DNA of 64,000 bases from Streptosporangium lutulentum (lineage in GTDB: Bacteria; Actinomycetota; Actinomycetes; Streptosporangiales; Streptosporangiaceae), in contig NZ_JAUSQU010000001.1 in the NCBI RefSeq assembly GCF_030811455.1, positions 434,001 through 498,000 of the forward strand, given 5' to 3'. Numbering within the stretch: the first letter of the stretch is position 1; every line of letters begins with the position of its first letter. The translations under genes and the position numbers were made by a program. The notes below the pieces were generated by a model. That model worked only from the letters and a program-made list of their open reading frames with translations. It searched no databases and was not told where the DNA came from. Positions 1 to 14,729 of the stretch are shown in pieces.

Positions 1-513
1 CCGTTGCCTGCGCGCCGCCACCGCGGCCGAATCCTCCGTGCGCGGTGAGGCCGCATCCCACCCCTCGGGCACGAACAGCCGCCAGTTCACCGGACAGGAC
101 GCGACGTCGGTGACCAGGTGCACACTCGGGGCGACCTGGCAGTTAGCGGTCTTGCCCAGCGCCCCGCAGTACTGCGGGGCCACTCCCGGCGACTCCTCAC
201 CATCCTTGACAAAGGACACATCATCGACCACCCAGGCGGCCGGGTTGATCGCCGTGTCCATCCGCCAGGCCAGCTCGGCCAGCACCAGTTGATGTGACCA
301 GGGGGCGTCGGTGAGAAACTGCTGCAGCCCCTGGCGGTCCACGCCCAGCCGGGCCGCCATCGGCTCCATCGATTTACGGGCCCCGTCGGTCAGCAGGCCG
401 CGCACATATCGTTCGCCCCATCGCCGCTGATCAGCACGGGCGAAACAGGAGAACACCTCGGCGGCGAACGTCTCCAGTCGCGCCCGCACGGCCTCGAGTT
501 CTTGAGGGGTCAT
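1..513 (-). CDS. IS701-type transposase, N-terminal part (cut by window edge)
   Basis: The reading frame opens with ATG at 513 on the minus strand and runs off the left edge without a stop, giving about 171 residues. The protein begins MTPQELEAVRARLETFAAEV and contains WVVDDVSFVKDG around residues 95-106. This matches the first catalytic Asp region of IS701-family DDE transposases, which are common in actinomycetes and usually about 400 residues long. The following segment, with QYCGALGKTANCQV and VNWRLFVPEGW, also fits that family. The element lies directly behind the end of the XRE regulator gene and appears to have truncated it. The other end of the element is outside the window, so activity and terminal repeats cannot be judged. 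Family assignment is from recognised motifs. Confidence 0.85.
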   Translation of the reverse strand, partial: MTPQELEAVRARLETFAAEVFSCFARADQRRWGERYVRGLLTDGARKSMEPMAARLGVDRQGLQQFLTDAPWSHQLVLAELAWRMDTAINPAAWVVDDVSFVKDGEESPGVAPQYCGALGKTANCQVAPSVHLVTDVASCPVNWRLFVPEGWDAASPRTEDSAAVAARRQR

Positions 514-572
514 CTTCCCTCACCCCCAACGCAGGTGACATACCGTCTCCTACCCGAGGTAACCAAGTCCTA
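1..572 (-). mobile_element. IS701-family insertion sequence, one end only
   Basis: The transposase frame plus about 60 bases upstream of its start run up to a CTAG at 573-576, which sits exactly where the XRE regulator loses recognisable sequence. IS701 elements are known to duplicate a 4-bp YTAR-like target, and CTAG fits. The exact boundary is inferred because the other copy of the target lies outside the window. Confidence 0.55.
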
Positions 573-1320
573 CTAGTTGGCGTGCACGGTCGGCAGCCAT
601 CCAACCGAGTTGCTGCTCGTCGAGCTTGACGAGCATGCGGGTTGCCAGAACGTAGCTCTGTGAGAGGAGTGCGTGATCCGTTTCGCTGTTGCCGAGCGCG
701 TGCCCGGCGCGGATCAACCGGGGTAGGCGTACGGCGAGGCTGCCGTAACGGCAGGCGTGGAAGTCGGCGAGGGCCCGCGAGAGTTCCGCGGGCACCTGCT
801 TAGGCGACGGGTCGCCGAGAGGGTTGCCGAGGCCGAGCATCGCGTCACGTAGGCCGGCGACGAGTACCTCGCCGAGCAGGGCCTCGTTTGCCTGTGCGGT
901 GCCACTTCCAAGGATTCGAGAGCTCGCGGCGGCGGCAGCCGTGACCGCTAGGTTCGCCAGCAAATTTCGTCGACGCACCGGATCTTCCCCGTCCTCCCGT
1001 TGACCCCTCTCCACACTATGAGCAGGCAGGCACGGATATGCGGTGGTTGGTACGGTCGCCTGTCCGTGTCGGGTCTTCGGCCGGGGCGGTGCCAGGCCAA
1101 GGGCTTGATGCGGGATGCCGAGCGCCTCAGCGAAACACTTCAACACGGCGACGTCGGTCATCGGGGAGATGCCCCGCTCGTAGCGGGACACCTGGGCCGC
1201 AGAATATCCGGCGAGCTGGCCGAGCTGGGCAAGCGTCAGTTGTCGCGCTTGCCGTATCTGACGTACGAGTTCCCCAGGAGTCACGGGGGATGATGCTTCC
1301 GTTTTGTCGATCGCACTCAT
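550..1320 (-). pseudogene. XRE-family regulator, C-terminus truncated by IS insertion
   Basis: The product starts MSAIDKTEAS (ATG at 1320; a longer in-frame start at 1422 lacks family-like sequence). It has a helix-turn-helix domain at about residues 12-65 (ELVRQIRQARQLTLAQLGQL, YSAAQVSRYERG). A basic patch followed by an Ala-rich segment (RRRNLLANLAVTAAAAASS) comes next, then a helical region of the TPR-like sensor type. Family members are usually about 400 residues. This one ends after about 256, with RQL followed by VGLGYLG and a stop that appears to be encoded by the insertion sequence, so the sensor half is missing. It is divergent from the murA/murB cassette and is its likely former regulator. 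Whether the truncated protein still binds DNA is unknown. Confidence 0.75.
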
Positions 1321-1388
1321 ACCTGTCCCCGCTGGTAGCTGAGACCACGCCCCTTTCAACCTACGCGCGCCTGAGCGCCTCTGACAGG

Positions 1389-1430
1389 GCCTTTGCACCA
1401 CACGCAAACGCCTTTGCAGCACAGGGCAAC
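1389..1430. promoter_or_regulatory. Two 21-bp direct repeats in the divergent XRE/mur promoter region
   Basis: Two adjacent copies beginning GCCTTTGCA, at 1389-1409 and 1410-1430, match at 17 of 21 positions. The 21-bp period places both copies on one face of the helix. They lie between the divergent XRE regulator and the acetyltransferase gene and are a candidate tandem operator for the regulator. The operator role is inference. Confidence 0.4.
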
Positions 1431-1528
1431 GCCCCTCCCGTAGCCGGGCCGGATGCGGTCACCTCATGTGCAGGCGGCTCGCGCTCAGCGGGCCGCTACC
1501 GATTCGGTCTGCTCCCTGGGAGGACTTG

Positions 1529-2260
1529 ATGCAGTCTCCGACCTTGGTTGCGTCTGCGGCACGTACCGCAGATGCCCGCCTCGCTCCCGATTACTACTTC
1601 CGCTCCGACGGTCTCGGCGCCTACATCACGGGTCTGCTGAGCAACTGCCGGACAGTCTTCGACATCAAACCCGCCATGACGGCCGACCTCGACAACCCCG
1701 TCGCCGTGGGCCTCGAAGGTCTGCCTCGTGGCGTCGTCGAGGCCGGCGCTCTACTCAGGGGCGAGGTCATCGTCGAGGCCGGCGCCCGCGTCGAGGCCGG
1801 CGCTCAGATCGTCGGACCGGTGCTGATCTGTGCTGGCGCCGTCGTGGCCGCCGGCGCCCTGGTCCGCGATCACAGCGTGATCGGCCCCGGCTGCCGGATC
1901 GGGTTCGGCGCGGAGATCACCCGTAGCCTGCTGGCCGGGCACGTCTTCGTCAAACATCCGTGCTTCATCGGCGACTCGGTGATCGGGCGACGCGCCAACA
2001 TCGGCTCTTTCTGCTCCACCACCGGCCTACGATGCGACCGCGGGCCGGTTACCGAACCGGCGATCGACGAGATCACCGTCAACCTCGACGGGCAGCGCAT
2101 CACCACCGGGCAAACGAAATTCGGTGCCGTCGTCGGCGACGAGGTCGCTCTGCCGGCCGGAACCGTCCTGTCGCCGGGAACGCTGATCGGCCCCGGCACG
2201 GTGGTCTACCCCCGCGACCACATCGGCGGCTTTCTGCCCGCCGGCTCTCGGGTGCGGTGA
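1529..2260 (+). CDS. GlmU-like left-handed beta-helix acetyltransferase (no nucleotidyltransferase domain)
   Basis: This 243-residue protein starts at ATG 1529 behind GGGAGG. From about residue 60 it is a run of hexapeptide repeats (for example VEAGALLRGEVIVEAGARVE, VIGPGCRIGFGAEI) typical of left-handed beta-helix acyltransferases. The second half (HPCFIGDSVIGRRANIGSF, TGQTKFGAVVGDEVALPAGT) resembles the C-terminal acetyltransferase part of archaeal-type bifunctional sugar-1-phosphate nucleotidylyltransferases. The nucleotidylyltransferase domain found in GlmU is absent; the first 55 residues are too short for one. The gene is followed 5 bases later by the murA homolog. A role in acetylating an amino sugar phosphate or nucleotide sugar that feeds the next enzymes is inferred. 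The substrate cannot be read from the sequence. Confidence 0.75.
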   Translation: MQSPTLVASAARTADARLAPDYYFRSDGLGAYITGLLSNCRTVFDIKPAMTADLDNPVAVGLEGLPRGVVEAGALLRGEVIVEAGARVEAGAQIVGPVLICAGAVVAAGALVRDHSVIGPGCRIGFGAEITRSLLAGHVFVKHPCFIGDSVIGRRANIGSFCSTTGLRCDRGPVTEPAIDEITVNLDGQRITTGQTKFGAVVGDEVALPAGTVLSPGTLIGPGTVVYPRDHIGGFLPAGSRVR

Positions 2261-2265
2261 CGGCC

Positions 2266-3582
2266 ATGACCATCACTCCCACCCGCGAAACTCTCGACGC
2301 CACCATCGTTCAGATCATCGGCGGGCACCCTCTGAGCGGCCGTATCCCGGTGCAGGGCAGCAAGAACATCGCTCTGCATCTGTACGCCGCCGCACTTCTG
2401 ACCGATGCCCCGGTCGTCCTGGCCGCGGTCCCGGACATCATCGACACCGCAGTGTGCGCGCAGATCTTGACCCACACCGGAGCCACCGTCACCACCACCG
2501 GCGGCCGGTTCGCTGTGGCGCCGGCCTTGGCGACGGCCATCAACCCTGTCATCCATCCCGAGCTCGGCCACCGGGTACGGACGACCGTCGTCCTGGCCGC
2601 CGCGATGCTGGCCCGAACCGGACAGGTCATGTTGCCCTACCCCGGCGGGGACGCGTTCTGCCCCCGCCTGATCGACCGGCACCTCGCGGCGATGCAGGCC
2701 GCCGGCGCCGAGGTCACCGCCGACGCCACCGGCATCCGCGCACGGTGCGGACCCCGCGGCCTACAGGCGTTCACGGTGGACGTGAACACCCCCTACGGGC
2801 CGAGTCTGGGAGCGACAGTGACCGCCATGCTGCTCGCCGCGCGCGCCCGGGGTAGCAGCCTGATCACGCACCCGTCGATCGAGCCCGAGGTCACCGAGAC
2901 CGCTCGCTTCCTGGCCGAGCGCGGCGTCGCGATCCACTTCGACGAGCAAGGGCTACACGTCGTCGGCAGCGAATGGATCACCGGCGGCGGGTTCACGGTG
3001 GCAGGGGACCGAATCGAGGCGGCAACCATGATCATGGCTGCTGCCTCGACCGGCGGTAACGTGCACCTCGACGGGATCACCCTCGCATCCATCCCCGAGG
3101 GCCTCACCGCGGCTCTGGCAACGGCGGGCATCAGTCTCACCGACGACGCGAGCGGCGGCATCCGTTCGATCCTCGACGGCCCCTTGCGGGCCATCACCAC
3201 GGCGACCGGCCCACATCCGGCGCTGCCCACCGACACCGCACCGCAGCTCGCGGCGATGCTCACTCAGGCCGACGGGTCCTCGCTGATCGCCGAGCGCGTG
3301 TATCCCCGCCGAGACACCCACATCAAGGGCCTGCGAGCCTTCGGCGCCGAGATCTCCGCGACTGGCTCGATCATCGGCGTACGCGGGCCCGTACGGCTAC
3401 GCGCCGCCTCGGCCGCGGCTGAGGACATCCGCGCGGTGACAGCTCTGTTAATCGCCGCTCTCGCTGCTGAGGGCGCCTCTACGATCCGGGGGATGTACCA
3501 CCTTCGGCGTGGCTACGGTCGTTTGCTGGCCAATCTCGCCACGCTCGGAGCTGACATCACCATCACCTCGGAGGCCCCCTGA
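2266..3582 (+). CDS. murA: UDP-N-acetylglucosamine 1-carboxyvinyltransferase homolog (MurA family, Cys-to-Asp)
   Basis: This 438-residue enolpyruvyl transferase starts at ATG 2266. The family transfers enolpyruvate from PEP to the 3-OH of UDP-GlcNAc, the first committed step to UDP-MurNAc. Lys33 in VQGSKN corresponds to the conserved MurA lysine. The C-terminal signature (DIRAVTALLIAALAAEG, MYHLRRGYGRL) and the LPTDTAPQLAAML segment are conserved. In the loop that normally carries the nucleophilic Cys (PGGCAIG in E. coli), this protein reads PGGDAFC, with Asp129 at the Cys position and a Cys three residues later. Cys-to-Asp MurA enzymes, as in Mycobacterium tuberculosis, are known to be fosfomycin-insensitive. 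The cassette context suggests an accessory enzyme, not the housekeeping MurA. The stop codon overlaps the next start. Confidence 0.85.
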   Translation: MTITPTRETLDATIVQIIGGHPLSGRIPVQGSKNIALHLYAAALLTDAPVVLAAVPDIIDTAVCAQILTHTGATVTTTGGRFAVAPALATAINPVIHPELGHRVRTTVVLAAAMLARTGQVMLPYPGGDAFCPRLIDRHLAAMQAAGAEVTADATGIRARCGPRGLQAFTVDVNTPYGPSLGATVTAMLLAARARGSSLITHPSIEPEVTETARFLAERGVAIHFDEQGLHVVGSEWITGGGFTVAGDRIEAATMIMAAASTGGNVHLDGITLASIPEGLTAALATAGISLTDDASGGIRSILDGPLRAITTATGPHPALPTDTAPQLAAMLTQADGSSLIAERVYPRRDTHIKGLRAFGAEISATGSIIGVRGPVRLRAASAAAEDIRAVTALLIAALAAEGASTIRGMYHLRRGYGRLLANLATLGADITITSEAP

Positions 3583-4643
3583 TGCCCGTACCGTTCAGCG
3601 CCGATGACACCGCCCGTCTTCACGAGACTCTCGCCGAGGTAGTCGCCGACGGCGCGACCCCCGGCGGGGTCATCGTCTGCGGCACCGTCGACGGGCAAAA
3701 GCAGGTCCTGACCGCAGGCACCGTCGCGCCCGAGCTCGGCGAGCTCGCCCCGACCGAGCACACGACGTACGACGTCGCCTCGCTGACCAAGGTCGTCGCC
3801 ACATGGCCACTCATCGGCCAGACCCTTCAGGCCGGCCTCGGTGATCTGGACGCACCCGTACGCGACGTGCTGCCCCCGATGACGGGTGAGGCCCCCAGCG
3901 CAGAGGCGACCCTCCGTCACCTCCTGGCGCACACCTCCGGGCTGCGTGCCTCCACCCGCCTGGATCACTACCGCGGCGCGTCCGCACCGCTGCACGAACT
4001 TCTGTGCCGCGAGCCGTTGGAGGAGGAGACCGGCCGGCACCGCTACATCAACCGCGGGTACATCCTGCTCGGCCTGGCCCTCGCCCATGTCAACGGTGTC
4101 CCGCTCGACGAGCTCGCCGGCCGGTTCTGGCAGCGCCTCGGGATGGGGTCCACCGTCTATGGGCCCGTTGCCCGCGGCTCTCACGTCGCACCGACCGAGC
4201 AGCGTATTCCCGGTGCCCCGAGGACCTGGGGCTGTGTGCACGACGACAACGCCGCGCTGCTGGGCGGGGTCGCCGGGCATGCAGGGGTCTTTTCCACACC
4301 CCACGACGTGGCCGTTTACGCTGCAGGGCTGCTCGACGCCTACGCCCGCGGCGACGTCCTGGGCGAGTGGCTACGGGCGAGCCTGGTCCCACAGGCCCCG
4401 ATCGAGCCGGGCCTCGACCGCGGTGTGTCGTGGATCCTCGCCGCCGGCGGGCACGTCGCCTATCACCACGGGTTCACCGGTACCAGTCTCTATCTCGCCC
4501 CGGACGCCGGCCGGTACCTCGTGATCTGCACCAACGCCGTTTACTACGGGGCCGCCCGCACTCGCATCGCACCGTTGCGGGCCCTCGCGCTCAAGACGAT
4601 TTCCGCTTCCGCGACATGGCGCTCGGGGGTGTTGGATGAGTGA
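3582..4643 (+). CDS. Serine hydrolase of the beta-lactamase/D-aminopeptidase fold
   Basis: This 353-residue protein starts at ATG 3582, overlapping the murA-like stop by one base. It has the three motifs of class C beta-lactamase/penicillin-binding-protein-like hydrolases: SxxK as Ser67-Leu-Thr-Lys70 within YDVASLTK, YxN as Tyr155-Ile-Asn157 in RYINRGY, and HHG at residues 295-297 in place of KTG. There is no signal peptide or lipobox, so it is probably cytoplasmic, which is unusual for enzymes acting on cell wall. The family includes esterases, D-Ala carboxypeptidases and D-aminopeptidases. The substrate is unknown. Its position between MurA- and MurB-like genes, overlapping the latter by 8 bases, suggests that it acts on the same muramyl-type product. 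Confidence 0.8.
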   Translation: MPVPFSADDTARLHETLAEVVADGATPGGVIVCGTVDGQKQVLTAGTVAPELGELAPTEHTTYDVASLTKVVATWPLIGQTLQAGLGDLDAPVRDVLPPMTGEAPSAEATLRHLLAHTSGLRASTRLDHYRGASAPLHELLCREPLEEETGRHRYINRGYILLGLALAHVNGVPLDELAGRFWQRLGMGSTVYGPVARGSHVAPTEQRIPGAPRTWGCVHDDNAALLGGVAGHAGVFSTPHDVAVYAAGLLDAYARGDVLGEWLRASLVPQAPIEPGLDRGVSWILAAGGHVAYHHGFTGTSLYLAPDAGRYLVICTNAVYYGAARTRIAPLRALALKTISASATWRSGVLDE

Positions 4644-5688
4644 ACTGCTCGCCGATCACACCACGCTGCGTCTCGGCGGCCCCGCTGAGCGGCTGCTCAT
4701 TCACACCGATCCGGCTGCCTGGCCCGATCTCACGCACGCCGTCTTGCACGAGGCTATAGCGCCGTTTGTTCTCGGCGGCGGCAGTAACACCATCGCCGAC
4801 GACACCGGGTATCCCGGGCCGGTGATCCGCATGGCGACCCGCGGCATCACCGCCCGTCAGCTCGACGGGGGCGTCGTAGAAGTCACCAGTCAGGCCGGCG
4901 AGCCGCTCTCGGCCCTCGTCGCGTTCGCCATCACCGAGGGCCTATCCGGCATCGAGTACCTCGCCGGTATCCCAGGCACGGTCGGCGCCGCTCCGATCCA
5001 GAACACCGGCGCCTACGGTCAGCAGATATCCGACACCCTCGCCCGCCTCACCGTCTATGACTGGAGCCGTAGGCAGCTCGCCGTCTTCTACCCGGAAGCA
5101 TGCGGGTTCGGCTACCGCACCAGCCTTTTCAAGGCCTACCCGGGCCGGTGGACGATCCTTGAGGTCGTCTTACGTCTCACCCGTAGTGCGTACGCCGCCC
5201 CGGTCACATACCAGCATCTCGCCCATCACCTCGGCGTGCCCCTGCACGCCCGGGTTCCGCTCGTCGAGGCGGCCCGAGGTGTCATGATCGACCGCTGTCA
5301 GCGTGGCCTCTCCCTATCGGAGAGCGGGCCCGATGCCCGCCAAGTGGGGTCGGTGTTCCTTAACCCGCCGATCACCGCGACTCAAGCTGATGAGGTGTGC
5401 AAGGCGGGCGGCATGGTCTACCGCGATGACTATCGCGTTCTGCGAACGAGCGCCGGATGGCTGCTCCAACTGGCCGGGCACGATGCCGGCAGTCAGCTTG
5501 CACCAGGAGTGTCCTGCTCGACCCGTCGAGCTCTTACCCTCACCGCTCATGACGGGGCGACCTCGGCCGCCTTCAACGCGGTCCTGCAAACGCTGGCTCG
5601 TGACGTTTTCACCATGACGGGCATTCGGCTGCACCCTGAGCCCGCGCGGCCCGTCGCGGTGTTGATCGCCGAGAGGGACATGCCGTGA
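4636..5688 (+). CDS. murB: UDP-N-acetylenolpyruvoylglucosamine reductase homolog (MurB)
   Basis: This 350-residue FAD-dependent reductase starts at ATG 4636, inside the end of the serine hydrolase gene. The FAD-binding segment has LGGGSNTIADD near residue 55. The central part reads LAGIPGTVGAAPIQNTGAYG, and the substrate domain has GYRTSLFK. The proton-donating serine is present as Ser239 in QVGSVFLNP and the conserved C-terminal glutamate as Glu335 in HPEPARP. Length and the GYRTSLFK motif fit the type I MurB group. The known reaction is NADPH-dependent reduction of UDP-GlcNAc-enolpyruvate to UDP-MurNAc. Together with the MurA-like protein this would give a second complete route to a UDP-MurNAc-like compound. 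All catalytic residues seem intact. Confidence 0.88.
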   Translation: MSELLADHTTLRLGGPAERLLIHTDPAAWPDLTHAVLHEAIAPFVLGGGSNTIADDTGYPGPVIRMATRGITARQLDGGVVEVTSQAGEPLSALVAFAITEGLSGIEYLAGIPGTVGAAPIQNTGAYGQQISDTLARLTVYDWSRRQLAVFYPEACGFGYRTSLFKAYPGRWTILEVVLRLTRSAYAAPVTYQHLAHHLGVPLHARVPLVEAARGVMIDRCQRGLSLSESGPDARQVGSVFLNPPITATQADEVCKAGGMVYRDDYRVLRTSAGWLLQLAGHDAGSQLAPGVSCSTRRALTLTAHDGATSAAFNAVLQTLARDVFTMTGIRLHPEPARPVAVLIAERDMP

Positions 5689-6329: not shown

Positions 6330-6772
6330 AGTTATAAAGTAGCGTTTCTAGTCCGATTTGGCCGGGACGCCTTCGTGTTCGTCACCTGGCGTCGGTCGCC
6401 CGGCGCTGATGAGCGTGCCCTGCTCTCGGGTGCGAACTGGAGAGCCGTCTGGTATGAGGCGATCGACGCCGCAAACGCGAAGATCCAGGAAGCCAACCGG
6501 AAGTTGCCGAAGGATCAGCGGACCGATTCGGTGCCGAGGTGCGACCCTCACGACTGCTGCCATACGGCGGCGAGCTGGCTCGTGCAGCAAGGTGTGGATC
6601 TGTACCGAGTGAAGAATCTGCTTGGTCACGCGTCGTACCAGACGACTCTTCGGTATGCACGCCTGGCGCGCACGGTGAGATCGAGGAGGCGTGGTCGAAG
6701 ATGAATGCGCACCAGATGCGCACGGGGAATGATCGTGGATCAGTAACCCTGCTTCAACCTGGGACGATTTAA
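6330..6772 (+). pseudogene. Tyrosine recombinase (phage/ICE integrase) remnant, frameshifted
   Basis: The catalytic C-terminal part of a tyrosine integrase can be read from about 6330: [14 protein letters not shown], then [31 protein letters not shown] with the active-site Tyr. Normal enzymes have HDLRHTAAS, so the catalytic Arg of the box II HxxR is Cys here. Near 6665 the frame shifts: the expected tail ([15 protein letters not shown]) continues in another frame to a stop at 6772. The N-terminal DNA-binding half is missing. This is a dead integrase that marks the edge of a former mobile island covering the mur cassette. Confidence 0.75.
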
Positions 6773-10465: not shown

Positions 10466-12163
10466 GTGTTGCTAACGATCTCCACGACCGTACGGCCCGC
10501 GACCGACCTCGGATTCCTGCTGCACAAGCATCCTGACCGGGTCCAGGAGTTCGGGCAGTCGTACGGCACGGCCCGCGTCTTCTACCCGGAGGCGGACGAG
10601 GAACGCTGCACGGCGGCGTTGATGCTCGACGTCGACCCGGTCCGGCTGGTGCGCTCCCGCGGCCGGTCCACGCCCGACTACTCCATGGGCCAGTACGTCA
10701 ACGACCGGCCCTACGCCGCGTCGTCACTGCTGGCCGTGGCGCTGGGGGACGTGTTCCGCACGGCACGCACCGGACGCTGCGACAGCCGTCCGGAGCTGGC
10801 AGCCGGGCCGATCCCGCTGGAGGTCGCGCTGCCTGTGCTGCCCTGCCGGGGCGGTCCCAGGCTGGCTCGCCGGTTGTTCGAACCGCTGGGCTGGGAGGTC
10901 GAGGCGCGGGCCGTACCGCTGGACGAGGGGTTCCCCGAGTGGGGCGACTCCCGCTACGTGGGGCTGGCGCTGCGGGGTGAGGTGCGCCTGGCCGACGCGC
11001 TCAACCAGCTCTATGTGCTGCTCCCGGTGCTCGACGACTCCAAGCACTACTGGATCGCCTCCGACGAGGTGGACAAGCTGATCCGGGCAGGTGAGTCCTG
11101 GCTGGCCGCCCACCCGGAGAGGGGCCTGATCACCCGTCGCTACCTCGGCCGCCGCGGGACGCTGACCCGTACGGCCTTCGCCCGGCTGGCCGAGCTCGGC
11201 GACGACGTGGAGGAGGACCTCGAACCTCCCGTCGAGGAGGAGCCCGCCGCCGAGACCTTCCCCGTCCCGCGGGGCGAGGAGCCCCCGGCCGCGGACGGCG
11301 AGACGGTGCCGGACGGTGAGACGGTGCCGGACGGCGAGACGGTGCCGGGCGGTGATGCCGGGCCGGACGGCGAGGTGACGCGGGGTGGTGAGGCGGAAGC
11401 CGGAGGAGCGGTGCGGAAGCGGCCCCTGAACACCCTGCGGCGTGAGGCCGTGGTCGGCGTGCTGGAGGAGCTGGGCGCGCACACGGTGATCGACCTGGGC
11501 TGTGGGTCGGGCCAGTTGGTGGGGGCGCTGCTGGGCAGGCCGCGCTTCACCAAGGTGGCCGGGACGGACGTGTCGGCGCAGGCGCTGGCGATCGCGGCCA
11601 GGCGACTGAAGCTCGACCGGATGCCGGACAGGCAGGTGGAGCGGCTGAAGCTGTTCCAGGGCGCGCTGACCTACACCGACGACCGGTTCGCCGGATACGA
11701 CGCCGCCGTGCTCATGGAGGTCGTCGAGCACGTCGACCCGTCCAGGCTGAGCGCGCTGGAGCGGGTGGTCTTCGGCGCGGCCCGGCCGAAGCATGTGATC
11801 GTCACGACGCCCAACGTCGAGCACAACGTGCGCTACGAGTTCCTGGAGGGCATGCGCCACTCCGATCACCGCTTCGAGTGGACCCGGGCCGAGTTCCGGG
11901 CATGGGCCGCGACGGTCTGCGGCGAGTACGGCTACCGCGTCGCCTTCCTGCCGGTCGGCGACGACGACCCCGAGGTGGGCCCGCCCACCCAGATGGCCGT
12001 GTTCGGCATCGCGGGCGCCGGGGGTGCCGGGGAGTCCGAGAAGGCCGGGGGCGCCGGGGAGGCCGTACGCGCTGAGAACGAGGTGGGCGCCGGAAGCGCC
12101 GTGAGCACGGGAAACATCGCAAACGCTGGAAACGCCGCGGTCGTGGGAGGTGGAGATGACTGA
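10466..12163 (+). CDS. hen1: Hen1, 3'-terminal RNA ribose 2'-O-methyltransferase
   Basis: This 565-residue protein starts at GTG 10466. The N-terminal domain (residues about 1-245, MLLTISTTVRPATDLGFLLH, DYSMGQYVNDRPYAASSLLA) is characteristic of bacterial Hen1 and is known to help activate Pnkp for ligation. An acidic linker contains three perfect-length DGETVP repeats. The methyltransferase domain follows (VIDLGCGSGQLVGALL near residue 340; EVVEHVDPSRL; MRHSDHRFEWTRAEF), including the Glu/His residues that bind the metal in Hen1. It methylates the 2'-OH at the 3' end of cleaved RNA before sealing, so that the repaired RNA resists re-cleavage. The C-terminal 50 residues are Gly/Ala-rich low complexity. 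Overlaps pnkp by 8 bases. Confidence 0.92.
   Translation: MLLTISTTVRPATDLGFLLHKHPDRVQEFGQSYGTARVFYPEADEERCTAALMLDVDPVRLVRSRGRSTPDYSMGQYVNDRPYAASSLLAVALGDVFRTARTGRCDSRPELAAGPIPLEVALPVLPCRGGPRLARRLFEPLGWEVEARAVPLDEGFPEWGDSRYVGLALRGEVRLADALNQLYVLLPVLDDSKHYWIASDEVDKLIRAGESWLAAHPERGLITRRYLGRRGTLTRTAFARLAELGDDVEEDLEPPVEEEPAAETFPVPRGEEPPAADGETVPDGETVPDGETVPGGDAGPDGEVTRGGEAEAGGAVRKRPLNTLRREAVVGVLEELGAHTVIDLGCGSGQLVGALLGRPRFTKVAGTDVSAQALAIAARRLKLDRMPDRQVERLKLFQGALTYTDDRFAGYDAAVLMEVVEHVDPSRLSALERVVFGAARPKHVIVTTPNVEHNVRYEFLEGMRHSDHRFEWTRAEFRAWAATVCGEYGYRVAFLPVGDDDPEVGPPTQMAVFGIAGAGGAGESEKAGGAGEAVRAENEVGAGSAVSTGNIANAGNAAVVGGGDD
11294..11347 (+). repeat. Three 18-bp tandem repeats in the hen1 linker
   Basis: Units at 11294-11311, 11312-11329 and 11330-11347 differ only at one third-codon position and encode DGETVP three times. 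They fall in the acidic linker between the two Hen1 domains, a place where length variation should be tolerated. Confidence 0.85.
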
Positions 12164-14729
12164 GATCAATGTGCCGGAGATGTCGCTGGTCGTGCTCGTG
12201 GGGGTGTCCGGGAGCGGGAAGTCGACCTTCGCCCGCAAGCACTTCACCCCCACGCAGGTGGTCTCCTCTGACTTCTGCCGCGGGCTGGTGTCCGACGACG
12301 AGAACGACCAGACCGCCACCTCCGACGCCTTCGACGTGCTCCACTACATCGTCGGCACCAGGCTCAAGCGGGGGCTGCTCACGGTCGTCGACGCCACCAA
12401 CGTCCAGTGGGAGGCGCGCAAGAGCCTGATCGACCTGGCCAAACAGCACAACGTGCTGGTCGACGCGATCGTCGTGGACGTGCCCGAGGAGGTGGCGATC
12501 GCGCGCAACGAGGTCAGGCCCGACCGGAACTTCGGCCCCCAGGTGATCCGGCGGCAGCGCAAGGACCTGCGGCGGTCCATGGCCAAGATCTCCCGGGACG
12601 GGTTCCGCCGGGTCCACGTGCTGCGCGGGACCGAGGAGATCGAGGCCGCCGTCGTCGTCACGGAGAAGTCGTGGACCGACAGGCGTGAGCTGACCGGGCC
12701 GTTCGACATCATCGGCGACGTGCACGGCTGCCGCTCCGAGCTGGAGACGCTGCTGCGCACCCTGGGATGGCGGATCGCCCCCGGCGGTACGGGCGCCACC
12801 CACCCGGAGGGCAGGACGGCGGTGTTCGTCGGCGACCTCGTGGACCGGGGACCGGACTCTCCGGGCGTGCTCCGGCTGGTCATGGGCATGGTCGCGGCCG
12901 GAACCGCACTGTGCGTGTCGGGCAACCACGAGCAGAAGCTGGCCCGCGCCCTCAACGGCCGCAAGGTCAAGGTCGCCCACGGCCTGCAGGAGTCGCTGGA
13001 CCAGCTCGCCGCCGAGCCGGAGGAGTTCCGGCGGGCCGCGCTGGCCTTCATGGACGGTCTGATCAGCCACTACCGTCTCGACGGCGGCAGGCTCGTCGTC
13101 GCGCACGCGGGCCTGAAGGAGGCCTACCACGGCCGTGCCTCGGGCCGGGTGCGCTCCTTCGCGCTGTACGGCGACACCACCGGCGAGACCGACGAGTACG
13201 GCCTGCCGGTGCGCTACCCCTGGGCGAGGGAGTACCGGGGACGGGCCATGGTCGTCTACGGCCACACCCCTGTCCCCGAGACCGAGTGGATCAACAACAC
13301 GATCTGCCTGGACACCGGGGTGGTCTTCGGAGGGAAGCTGACCGCGCTGCGTTACCCGGACAAGGAGATCGTCTCGGTGCCCGCGGAAAAGGTCTGGTAC
13401 GAGTCGGCCAAGCCGTTCGCGGCCCCCGGCCACCGTGACCCGGGCATGCTCTCCATCGAGGACGTGCGGGGGACCAGGCACATCGAGGTACGCCACGGCG
13501 GCGGGCACATCAAGATCCGGGAGGAGAACTCGGCCGCCGCGCTTGAGATCATGAGCCGGTTCGCCGTCGATCCGCGCTGGCTGGTCTACCTGCCGCCGAC
13601 GATGGCGCCGCCGGAGACCTCCAGGCTCGACGGCTACCTGGAGCACCCGGCCGAGGCGTTCGCCGAGTTCGCGGCGGCCGGAGTGGCCCGGGTCGTGTGC
13701 GAGGAGAAGCACATGGGCTCGCGGGCGGTGGCCGTACTGGCCAGGAGCCCGGAGGCGGCGGCCGCGCGGTTCGGGATCACGGACGGGAGCGCGGGGACGG
13801 TCTACACCAGGACCGGCAGGTCGTTCTTCGCCGACACCGCCGAACTCGTGGAGCGGCTCAGGCGGGCGTGCACGCCGCTCATGGACGAGCTGGGATCGGA
13901 CTGGATCGCCCTCGACTGCGAGCTGCTGCCCTGGTCGGCCAAGGCCGAGGGGCTGATCCGCGACCAGTACGCGTCGGTGGGCGCCGCCGCCCGTACGGCG
14001 CTGCCGGAGGCGATCACCGTGCTGGAAGCGGCGGCTGGGCGCGGGTTGGATGTGAGCTCTTTGCTGGACCGCACCCGCCGCCGCTCCACCAACGCTGCCC
14101 TCTTTAGAGACGCATATGCCCGTTACTGCTGGCCTGTCTCAGGTTTGGACGGTCTGCGTCTGGCACCGTTCCAGATCCTCGCCTGCGAGGGCCGGGCGAC
14201 CGCGGTGCTGGAGCCGCACTCCTGGCACCTGGAGATGCTGTCCCGGCTCGACGATCCGCTGATCGCGCCCACCCGGCACCGGTTCGTGGATCTGAGCTCG
14301 GAGGAGTCCAGGGACGCGGCGACCGCCTGGTGGTCGGAACTGACCGCCGAGGGCGGGGAGGGCATGGTGGTCAAGCCGCTGGGGCCGCCGGACGGCCCGG
14401 TGGCGGACCCGGCGGCGGGCGGAGCCGGCGCGGCCACGGAGGTGACCGGGGGCGCGGGCACGCCAGGAGGACGGAGCCGGGTGCAACCGGGGATCAAGGT
14501 GCGCGGGCGGGAGTATCTGCGGATCATCTACGGCCCCGACTACACCGAGAGCCTGGAGGTCCTGCGCCACCGGTTCCTGGGCCGCAAACGCTCGCTCGCC
14601 CTGCGCGAGCACGCGCTCGGGCTGGAGGCGCTGTCCCGGCTGGCCGAGGGGGAACCGCTGTGGAGGGTCCATGAGGCGGTCTTCGCGGTTCTGGCCCTGG
14701 AATCCGAACCGGTGGATCCTCGTCTTTGA
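12156..14729 (+). CDS. pnkp: Pnkp, polynucleotide kinase-phosphatase-ligase
   Basis: This 857-residue three-domain RNA repair enzyme starts at ATG 12156, correctly spaced from GGGAGG; an in-frame GTG at 12150 is less likely. The 5'-kinase has the P-loop GVSGSGKST at residues 16-24. The 2',3'-phosphatase is a calcineurin-type metallophosphoesterase with GDVHG near 187, VGDLVDRGPDS and SGNHEQ. The C-terminal nucleotidyltransferase has the ligase motif KHMG with lysine 518, EGMVVKP ending at Lys740 and IKVRG with Lys781. The about 40-residue spacing between the last two motifs is filled with a Gly/Ala-rich insertion and is longer than I would expect. With Hen1 it forms the known bacterial RNA repair system for ribotoxin-cut RNAs. 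Translational coupling to hen1 is likely. Confidence 0.93.
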   Translation: MTEINVPEMSLVVLVGVSGSGKSTFARKHFTPTQVVSSDFCRGLVSDDENDQTATSDAFDVLHYIVGTRLKRGLLTVVDATNVQWEARKSLIDLAKQHNVLVDAIVVDVPEEVAIARNEVRPDRNFGPQVIRRQRKDLRRSMAKISRDGFRRVHVLRGTEEIEAAVVVTEKSWTDRRELTGPFDIIGDVHGCRSELETLLRTLGWRIAPGGTGATHPEGRTAVFVGDLVDRGPDSPGVLRLVMGMVAAGTALCVSGNHEQKLARALNGRKVKVAHGLQESLDQLAAEPEEFRRAALAFMDGLISHYRLDGGRLVVAHAGLKEAYHGRASGRVRSFALYGDTTGETDEYGLPVRYPWAREYRGRAMVVYGHTPVPETEWINNTICLDTGVVFGGKLTALRYPDKEIVSVPAEKVWYESAKPFAAPGHRDPGMLSIEDVRGTRHIEVRHGGGHIKIREENSAAALEIMSRFAVDPRWLVYLPPTMAPPETSRLDGYLEHPAEAFAEFAAAGVARVVCEEKHMGSRAVAVLARSPEAAAARFGITDGSAGTVYTRTGRSFFADTAELVERLRRACTPLMDELGSDWIALDCELLPWSAKAEGLIRDQYASVGAAARTALPEAITVLEAAAGRGLDVSSLLDRTRRRSTNAALFRDAYARYCWPVSGLDGLRLAPFQILACEGRATAVLEPHSWHLEMLSRLDDPLIAPTRHRFVDLSSEESRDAATAWWSELTAEGGEGMVVKPLGPPDGPVADPAAGGAGAATEVTGGAGTPGGRSRVQPGIKVRGREYLRIIYGPDYTESLEVLRHRFLGRKRSLALREHALGLEALSRLAEGEPLWRVHEAVFAVLALESEPVDPRL

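Follow-up and report, generated by a model that had tools for sequence, protein, structure and literature searches.

A window of 64,000 nucleotides from Streptosporangium lutulentum (NCBI RefSeq assembly GCF_030811455.1, contig NZ_JAUSQU010000001.1, positions 434,001 to 498,000; "the window" refers to this whole stretch) carries a cassette of four genes at positions 1529..5688. From comparisons of sequences, we consider with moderate confidence that the cassette is a horizontally mobile accessory muramyl-nucleotide module, usually accompanied by a helix-turn-helix (HTH) regulator, which would be separate from cell wall synthesis and would feed a small molecule. The four genes had been delimited in a first-pass annotation of the window, and matches to Pfam and NCBIfam confirm them:

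1529..2260, plus strand: HEX, a stand-alone left-handed beta-helix (LbH) protein of 243 amino acids (Hexapep, 1.1e-13)
2266..3582, plus strand: MurA-like enolpyruvyl transferase of 438 amino acids (Pfam EPSP_synthase, 8e-46)
3582..4643, plus strand: AMI, an S12/beta-lactamase-fold serine hydrolase of the YfeW (PBP4B)/murQ-linked type, 353 amino acids (PF00144 Beta-lactamase, 6.1e-37)
4636..5688, plus strand: MurB-like flavin adenine dinucleotide (FAD) oxidoreductase of 350 amino acids (FAD_binding_4, 9.7e-13; MurB_C, 5.4e-10)

All four genes are intact in the window copy; the MurA and AMI genes overlap by one base, and the AMI and MurB genes overlap by eight. The host genome also encodes two further MurA proteins, both above the murA cut-off, one further MurB, and aroA. 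Therefore, the cassette MurA and MurB are extra copies, and the possibility that they are the only ones in the genome is rejected. The ratios of nonsynonymous to synonymous substitution (dN/dS) between the window copy and the copy in genome G002 are 0.218 for HEX, 0.255 for MurA, 0.185 for AMI and 0.301 for MurB, and the cassette genes are under purifying selection. With values of 0.19-0.30, the earlier description of a degraded island does not apply to the four enzymes; it is accepted for the split regulator and the integrase fragment described below.

Recurrence and mobility of the cassette

The gene order was searched for and is conserved in other actinobacterial loci, so the earlier concern that it might be found nowhere else does not hold; it recurs in Streptomyces plasmids, Streptosporangium, Microtetraspora, Kitasatospora and others. 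The genome collection, plasmids and relatives together provided 40 distinct HEX loci, with the duplicates L050 (the same as G012) and L058 (the same as G011) each counted once. MurA was matched in 38 loci, AMI in 37, and all three of HEX, MurA and AMI in 37. These three genes are uninterrupted in 33 of the 40 loci, and 20 of those 33 also have an uninterrupted MurB; the counts were made by hand, and a stop at the natural end in L059, L060, L070, L075 and L076 was taken as the gene end. The other seven loci comprise two that are cut by contig ends (L052 and L074), one with an internal deletion (L080), two with an interrupted MurA (L065 and L081), and two with HEX only (L062 and L079). MurB is damaged in 5 of the 40 loci and absent from 15 more; in 11 of these 15, the sequence extends far enough for the absence to be judged. 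The loci without MurB are scattered in the joint tree. MurB has been lost repeatedly.

The proteins diverge together. The correlation of protein distances across the 33 loci is r = 0.945 for HEX-MurA, 0.892 for HEX-AMI and 0.931 for MurA-AMI, and across 20 loci it is 0.898 for MurB-MurA. In the joint tree, Streptosporangium is split, and S. subroseum groups with Embleya (support 93/88, short of the strong mark). At E<=1e-20, HEX occurs in 4 of 16 Streptosporangium genomes, in 12 of 200 genomes of the family sample, and in 1 of 394 genomes of the class sample, which is the window's own. Three of the 12 family-sample proteins are stand-alone relatives of 32-35% identity, and the surrounding DNA that was retrieved contains neither MurA nor AMI. 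When the genome collection was scanned with two short peptide patterns only, 51 loci were found, 34 of them actinobacterial; outside the actinobacteria, none of the 17 far loci had MurA or MurB in the available DNA, and one had a weak AMI match (8e-4).

The module is carried by linear Streptomyces plasmids, namely pFRL4, a plasmid of S. longwoodensis, and S. mirabilis pI. The G002 copy adjoins phage tail and endolysin genes, and that of S. subroseum is bordered by type I restriction genes on one side and GmrSD genes on the other. HEX relatives are present on two more Streptomyces plasmids; on one of them MurA and AMI are spread over several frames, and on the other there are no partners. The record of a Streptomyces NBC_01207 plasmid (L136) has a HEX relative of 57% identity beside NUDIX and small XRE genes; the DNA retrieved around it contains neither MurA nor AMI, and the record has a second HEX-like place. 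Among the Streptomyces plasmid group, the neighbours include RmlD-like, PIG-L, nitrilase-like, peptide deformylase, fxlM methyltransferase, M15 and GNAT genes, and subsets of these accompany the cassette in two arrangements in L044, L045, L046, L053, L054 and L080. A phage origin was considered and rejected. A HEX scan of viral contigs returned two relatives of 37% identity with no MurA or AMI in the available stretches, and the AMI scan returned none; in a phage collection, 41 records matched MurA and 11 matched the hydrolase, all below 60% identity.

In the host genome (G000), two conserved genes delimit an insertion hot spot (G000:C1 430795-442145) that holds the cassette. Of 16 genus genomes, all 16 have the flanking gene matched up to G000:C1:430795, and 15 have the one matched from 442145. 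The two genes are 11.3 kb apart in the host, and in the 14 other genus genomes with both flanks the spacing is 0.1-1.2 kb in six (G001, G007, G008, G010, G011 and G012), where the site is almost empty, and 4.5-44 kb in eight. Because this spacing varies, and because the cassettes of G011 and G012 are on contigs other than that of the hot spot, the site is variable and the cassette occupies different places in different species. At the edges of the insertion, no target-site duplication of at least seven bases (shorter words were barely tested) and no matching transposon ends were found. The cassette is surrounded by the following features:

1..513, minus strand: 5′ part of a DDE transposase gene, 411 amino acids (whole gene G000:C1:433278-434513; PF13546 DDE_5, 5.3e-88)
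550..1320, minus strand: 5′ part of an XRE-type HTH regulator gene, divergent from the cassette (PF13560, 1.3e-10)
1321..1528, strand not applicable: divergent intergenic region between the regulator and the cassette, presumed from the layout to hold the promoter/operator
6375..6701, plus strand: C-terminal fragment of a tyrosine recombinase (integrase), 109 amino acids, a mobile-element remnant (PF00589, 9.1e-10; phrog_1, 5.3e-12)

The regulator gene is split: residues 1-240 of a plasmid regulator of 450 amino acids match window positions 574-1284, and residues 240-450 match G000:C1 431332-431961, which places the 3′ part about 2.0-2.7 kb to the left of the window start, with transposase genes in between. 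The 411-amino-acid transposase starts at window position 513, extends leftward beyond the window, and is inserted within the regulator; a second DDE transposase gene lies further left, also between the two regulator parts. Full-length regulator matches are present in G002 and S. canum. The flanking transposase and integrase sequences reported earlier are real, and we take the transposase to be of the IS701 type, as it was then labelled. Further to the right, two adjoining genes at window positions 10466-14000 resemble what we take to be a Hen1/Pnkp RNA-repair pair.

Relationships and active sites of the four proteins

The cassette MurA scores 317 bits against the MurA subfamily model PRK09369 of NCBIfam, above the cut-off of 297, and 305 bits against the murA equivalog TIGR01072, below the cut-off of 392.7. 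Residue counts refer to 36 aligned cassette copies, including that of L065 with two in-frame stops. K22, N23, R91, R120, D123, H125, S162, R331, R371 and R397 are kept in 36 of 36 copies and D305 in 35 of 36, and the window copy has all of K22, N23, R120, D305 and R397. The position of the fosfomycin cysteine, Cys115, is Asp in all 36; of the two host MurA proteins, L003 has Asp and L002 has Cys. The nucleotide loop is altered, with a variable P121 and L124 replaced by Arg in 34 of 36 copies; moreover, F328 is replaced by Tyr (35/36) and E329 by Pro (26/36). In a tree of 19 rows, the cassette clade is separate from the MurA proteins of E. coli and the host with support of 100/100. The substrate would be a nucleotide sugar.

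When 341 family genomes were searched for MurA, nine matches reached E<=1e-60, the window's own among them. Members of the same MurA clade are also found, without the other three cassette genes, on Streptomyces plasmids. In L137 (8444-12272) and L138 (8508-12269), an accessory MurA accompanies a large regulator and a nicotinamide adenine dinucleotide (NAD)-dependent epimerase, with a NUDIX gene beyond the regulator. The sister MurA of L142, which has Gly at N23, is found with a kinase-like gene and a NUDIX gene, near PseB, condensation and ABC genes. Other sister MurA proteins have unrelated neighbours, and that of L141 lacks the N-terminus. The accessory MurA proteins of L139 (10977-12269) and L140 (10959-12290) lie on a long branch and have the catalytic D305 replaced by Asn; possibly, they are no longer enolpyruvyl transferases.

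The cassette MurB scores 256 bits (4.5e-76) against PRK13903, above the cut-off of 231, and 120 bits against TIGR00179, below the cut-off of 144.5. R159 and E325 are kept in 21 of 21 rows and S229 in 20 of 21, the interrupted L080 included, and all three are kept in the window copy. The position of Y190 is Thr in the window and G599 copies in one alignment and Tyr in another.

The best solved relative of HEX is the archaeal-type GlmU ST0452 (2ggo/5z09, 5.8e-23), matched over its acetyltransferase half; HEX also matches the C-terminal part of TIGR03992 at 8.8e-34, below the cut-off. The active-site His (His143; His308 in ST0452) is kept in 38 of 38 proteins. The Tyr311 position is Phe in 27 of 27 and in 8 of 8 of a second alignment, Asn331 is kept in 2 of 38 and is mostly Gly, and Lys337 and Lys340 are kept in 1 of 8 and 0 of 8. 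The full acetyltransferase site (His, Tyr, Asn and Lys as in ST0452, with the residue roles that we presume) is not retained in HEX, and His alone is invariant. The three stand-alone relatives of 32-35% identity keep Tyr and Asn and lack Lys337. The earlier assignment as a GlmU-type acetyltransferase stands for the fold region; in the known site, Tyr and mostly Asn are replaced.

AMI matches PRK03642 (PBP4B) at 6.1e-15, below the cut-off, and E. coli YfeW matches 38 of 39 AMI rows with 23-32% identity over the matched part. The window protein has the motifs SLTK (SxxK), YIN (YxN) and HHG (HxG), and no signal peptide was seen by eye. A signature, HD..A-GG..GHAG.F, is found in 36 of the 39 rows; it is missed in L052 (contig end), L080 (internal deletion) and L065. 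The closest host paralog (35%, 2.4e-22), whose gene overlaps the host murQ, has the signature, and three other host S12 proteins do not. In E. coli, yfeW follows murQP. According to the first-pass annotation, the hydrolase had no textbook place; the likeness to YfeW and the overlap of the host paralog with murQ give it one. At the host murQ (L125 8836-10822, G000:C1:3482835-3484821), the overlapping YfeW-type hydrolase gene lacks an obvious signal peptide, and GNAT-like and ABC transporter-like genes are seen upstream by eye. This locus looks like an actinobacterial operon for the salvage of N-acetylmuramic acid (MurNAc).

A proposed pathway and its alternatives

We propose that HEX would acylate an amino sugar or its nucleotide, which is the weakest step. 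The MurA-like enzyme would then transfer the enolpyruvyl group of phosphoenolpyruvate to a nucleotide-activated N-acyl hexosamine, and the cassette or host MurB may reduce the product to a D-lactyl ether, as the kept residues and repeated MurB loss suggest. The recurrent loss fits a product that host MurB can reduce or one that remains an enolpyruvyl ether. Judging by its family and the murQ linkage, AMI would target the lactyl carboxyl, where it would act on an amide or an ester.

The final product may itself serve as a small molecule or be incorporated into one. In the relative G599, the module is located among biosynthetic-type genes. In this genome of 13.1 Mb, HEX, MurA, AMI and MurB occur together, with 51, 48, 43 and 40% identity to the window proteins, and the MurA, MurB and AMI motifs that were checked are kept. 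Within about 25 kb of the module, there are genes for a carbamoyltransferase, a Condensation protein, two acyl-CoA dehydrogenase-type proteins, an AMP-binding protein, an AurF-like oxygenase, a class III aminotransferase (Aminotran_3), an Orn/DAP (ornithine/diaminopimelate) decarboxylase of the pyridoxal phosphate (PLP) type and a HAD hydrolase. A fatty-acyl-AMP-ligase-like match is weaker, and the acyl-carrier and MFS matches are below their cut-offs. The biosynthetic-type cluster, which includes the four-gene module, spans about 558700-592900 of G599:C1 (L152 and L154), has genes on both strands, and contains two carrier-protein-like genes recognised by weak matches and possibly a third, recognised by eye. 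The earlier suggestion of a muramyl-containing metabolite gains support from these neighbours, in one genome. More tentatively, the module may be central to a so far unrecognised group of accessory pathways that use muramic-acid chemistry outside the wall, in which a MurA clade with a rebuilt pocket would act on a non-standard nucleotide sugar and clusters of the G599 type would acylate, carbamoylate and export the muramyl unit.

Several observations weigh against a muramyl-nucleotide module that feeds a small molecule. Of the residues that make up the known acetyltransferase site, HEX lacks Tyr and, mostly, Asn and Lys, and 11 loci have no MurB although their sequence runs on far enough to contain it. 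The module is present in 1 of 54 genomes of G599's genus; the cluster context comes from G599 and the weaker case of L142, and the cluster limits are those that we infer. Carrier, activating or tailoring, and exporter genes are not found beside the module in the window, and clustering gave no recurrent partners of this type elsewhere. One plasmid regulator is matched in 26 of the 40 loci, which leaves 14 without a match; several of these adjoin other large HTH or tetratricopeptide repeat (TPR)-type proteins (Pfam gave no domain in 3 of 10). The conserved extra genes that the first-pass annotation had proposed to look for are this regulator, the plasmid-group genes, and a three-locus Kitasatospora-type chromosomal site. 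By clustering with simple gene calls, no role-bearing neighbour family recurs beyond the latter two; therefore, in most loci only the regulator hints at a pathway.

Ordinary accessory wall metabolism under stress control, in which the extra MurA and MurB raise the supply of UDP-MurNAc and AMI trims muropeptides in the cytosol so that they can be recycled, would account for the kept catalytic residues of both enzymes, for the overlap of the host AMI paralog with murQ, and for the 11 loci without MurB, where host MurB could stand in. However, the cassette MurA falls below the TIGR01072 cut-off, its nucleotide loop is changed (L124R), its sister proteins are paired with an epimerase or NUDIX instead, and in G599 the genes around the module are of biosynthetic type. 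Moreover, no MurNAc-salvage family recurs beside the cassette in the clustering, although no dedicated search was made. We consider this explanation unlikely. It is very unlikely that the cassette is a resistance or bypass device for survival under an inhibitor of early wall synthesis, as the Asp at position 115 of every cassette MurA and the carriage on plasmids and islands with a regulator might suggest, because a host MurA already has Asp there and HEX and AMI have no obvious role in a bypass. A conflict or signalling module, in which the HTH regulator would sense a nucleotide-sugar-like product as a signal or the product would take part in phage defence, agrees with the regulator matches, the large HTH/TPR-type neighbours, and the settings of the S. 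subroseum and G002 copies, but is likewise very unlikely given that the cassette has no toxin, nuclease or effector and that, when 223 of 263 listed neighbour genes were scanned as a candidate defence island, each PADLOC family among the first 25 of 66 and the first 25 of 32 had at most two matches, mainly to restriction-modification (no background control).

Muramic acid is generally regarded as a wall-only sugar. The parts of the cassette belong to known families; among the open-access papers that our searches listed, none was recognisably about the cassette or about such a mobile combination. If the proposed accessory muramyl-nucleotide module is real, mobile genes that yield a muramyl-type nucleotide away from wall synthesis, and that recur in biosynthetic-type surroundings, would point to a new class of compounds and would explain the three MurA proteins of some actinobacteria. 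Plasmid proteins annotated as UDP-N-acetylglucosamine 1-carboxyvinyltransferase would gain a testable, and possibly different, function.

Comparison with known systems

The cassette shares with the MurA and MurB of peptidoglycan synthesis their families and the catalytic-site residues. It differs in the separate MurA clade, the TIGR01072 score below the cut-off, the changes L124R, F328Y and, mostly, E329P, and the variable P121, and its pair is accompanied by HEX and AMI as an addition to the host copies. NikO is a MurA-fold enolpyruvyl transferase of nikkomycin, in which this fold serves a natural product; however, the cassette MurA matches NikO at 3.4e-27, compared with 3.1e-60 for the best MurA, and we know of no MurB or hydrolase partner of NikO.

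Compared with the archaeal-type GlmU ST0452, HEX shares the LbH region and the His308 equivalent, but it is without the nucleotidyltransferase half, has Phe for Tyr311 and mostly Gly for Asn331, and has mostly lost Lys337 and Lys340. AMI resembles E. coli PBP4B/YfeW in sequence (23-32% identity) and in the common signature, and yfeW lies in a murQ operon. The amiE gene of B. subtilis, which encodes a MurNAc-L-alanine amidase, is likewise reported to be located in the murQ cluster (PMC5061867); AMI is likened to AmiE by family and gene setting rather than by the AmiE sequence. In contrast to both YfeW and AmiE, AMI is linked to MurA and MurB instead of MurQ and MurP, and it has no signal peptide by eye.

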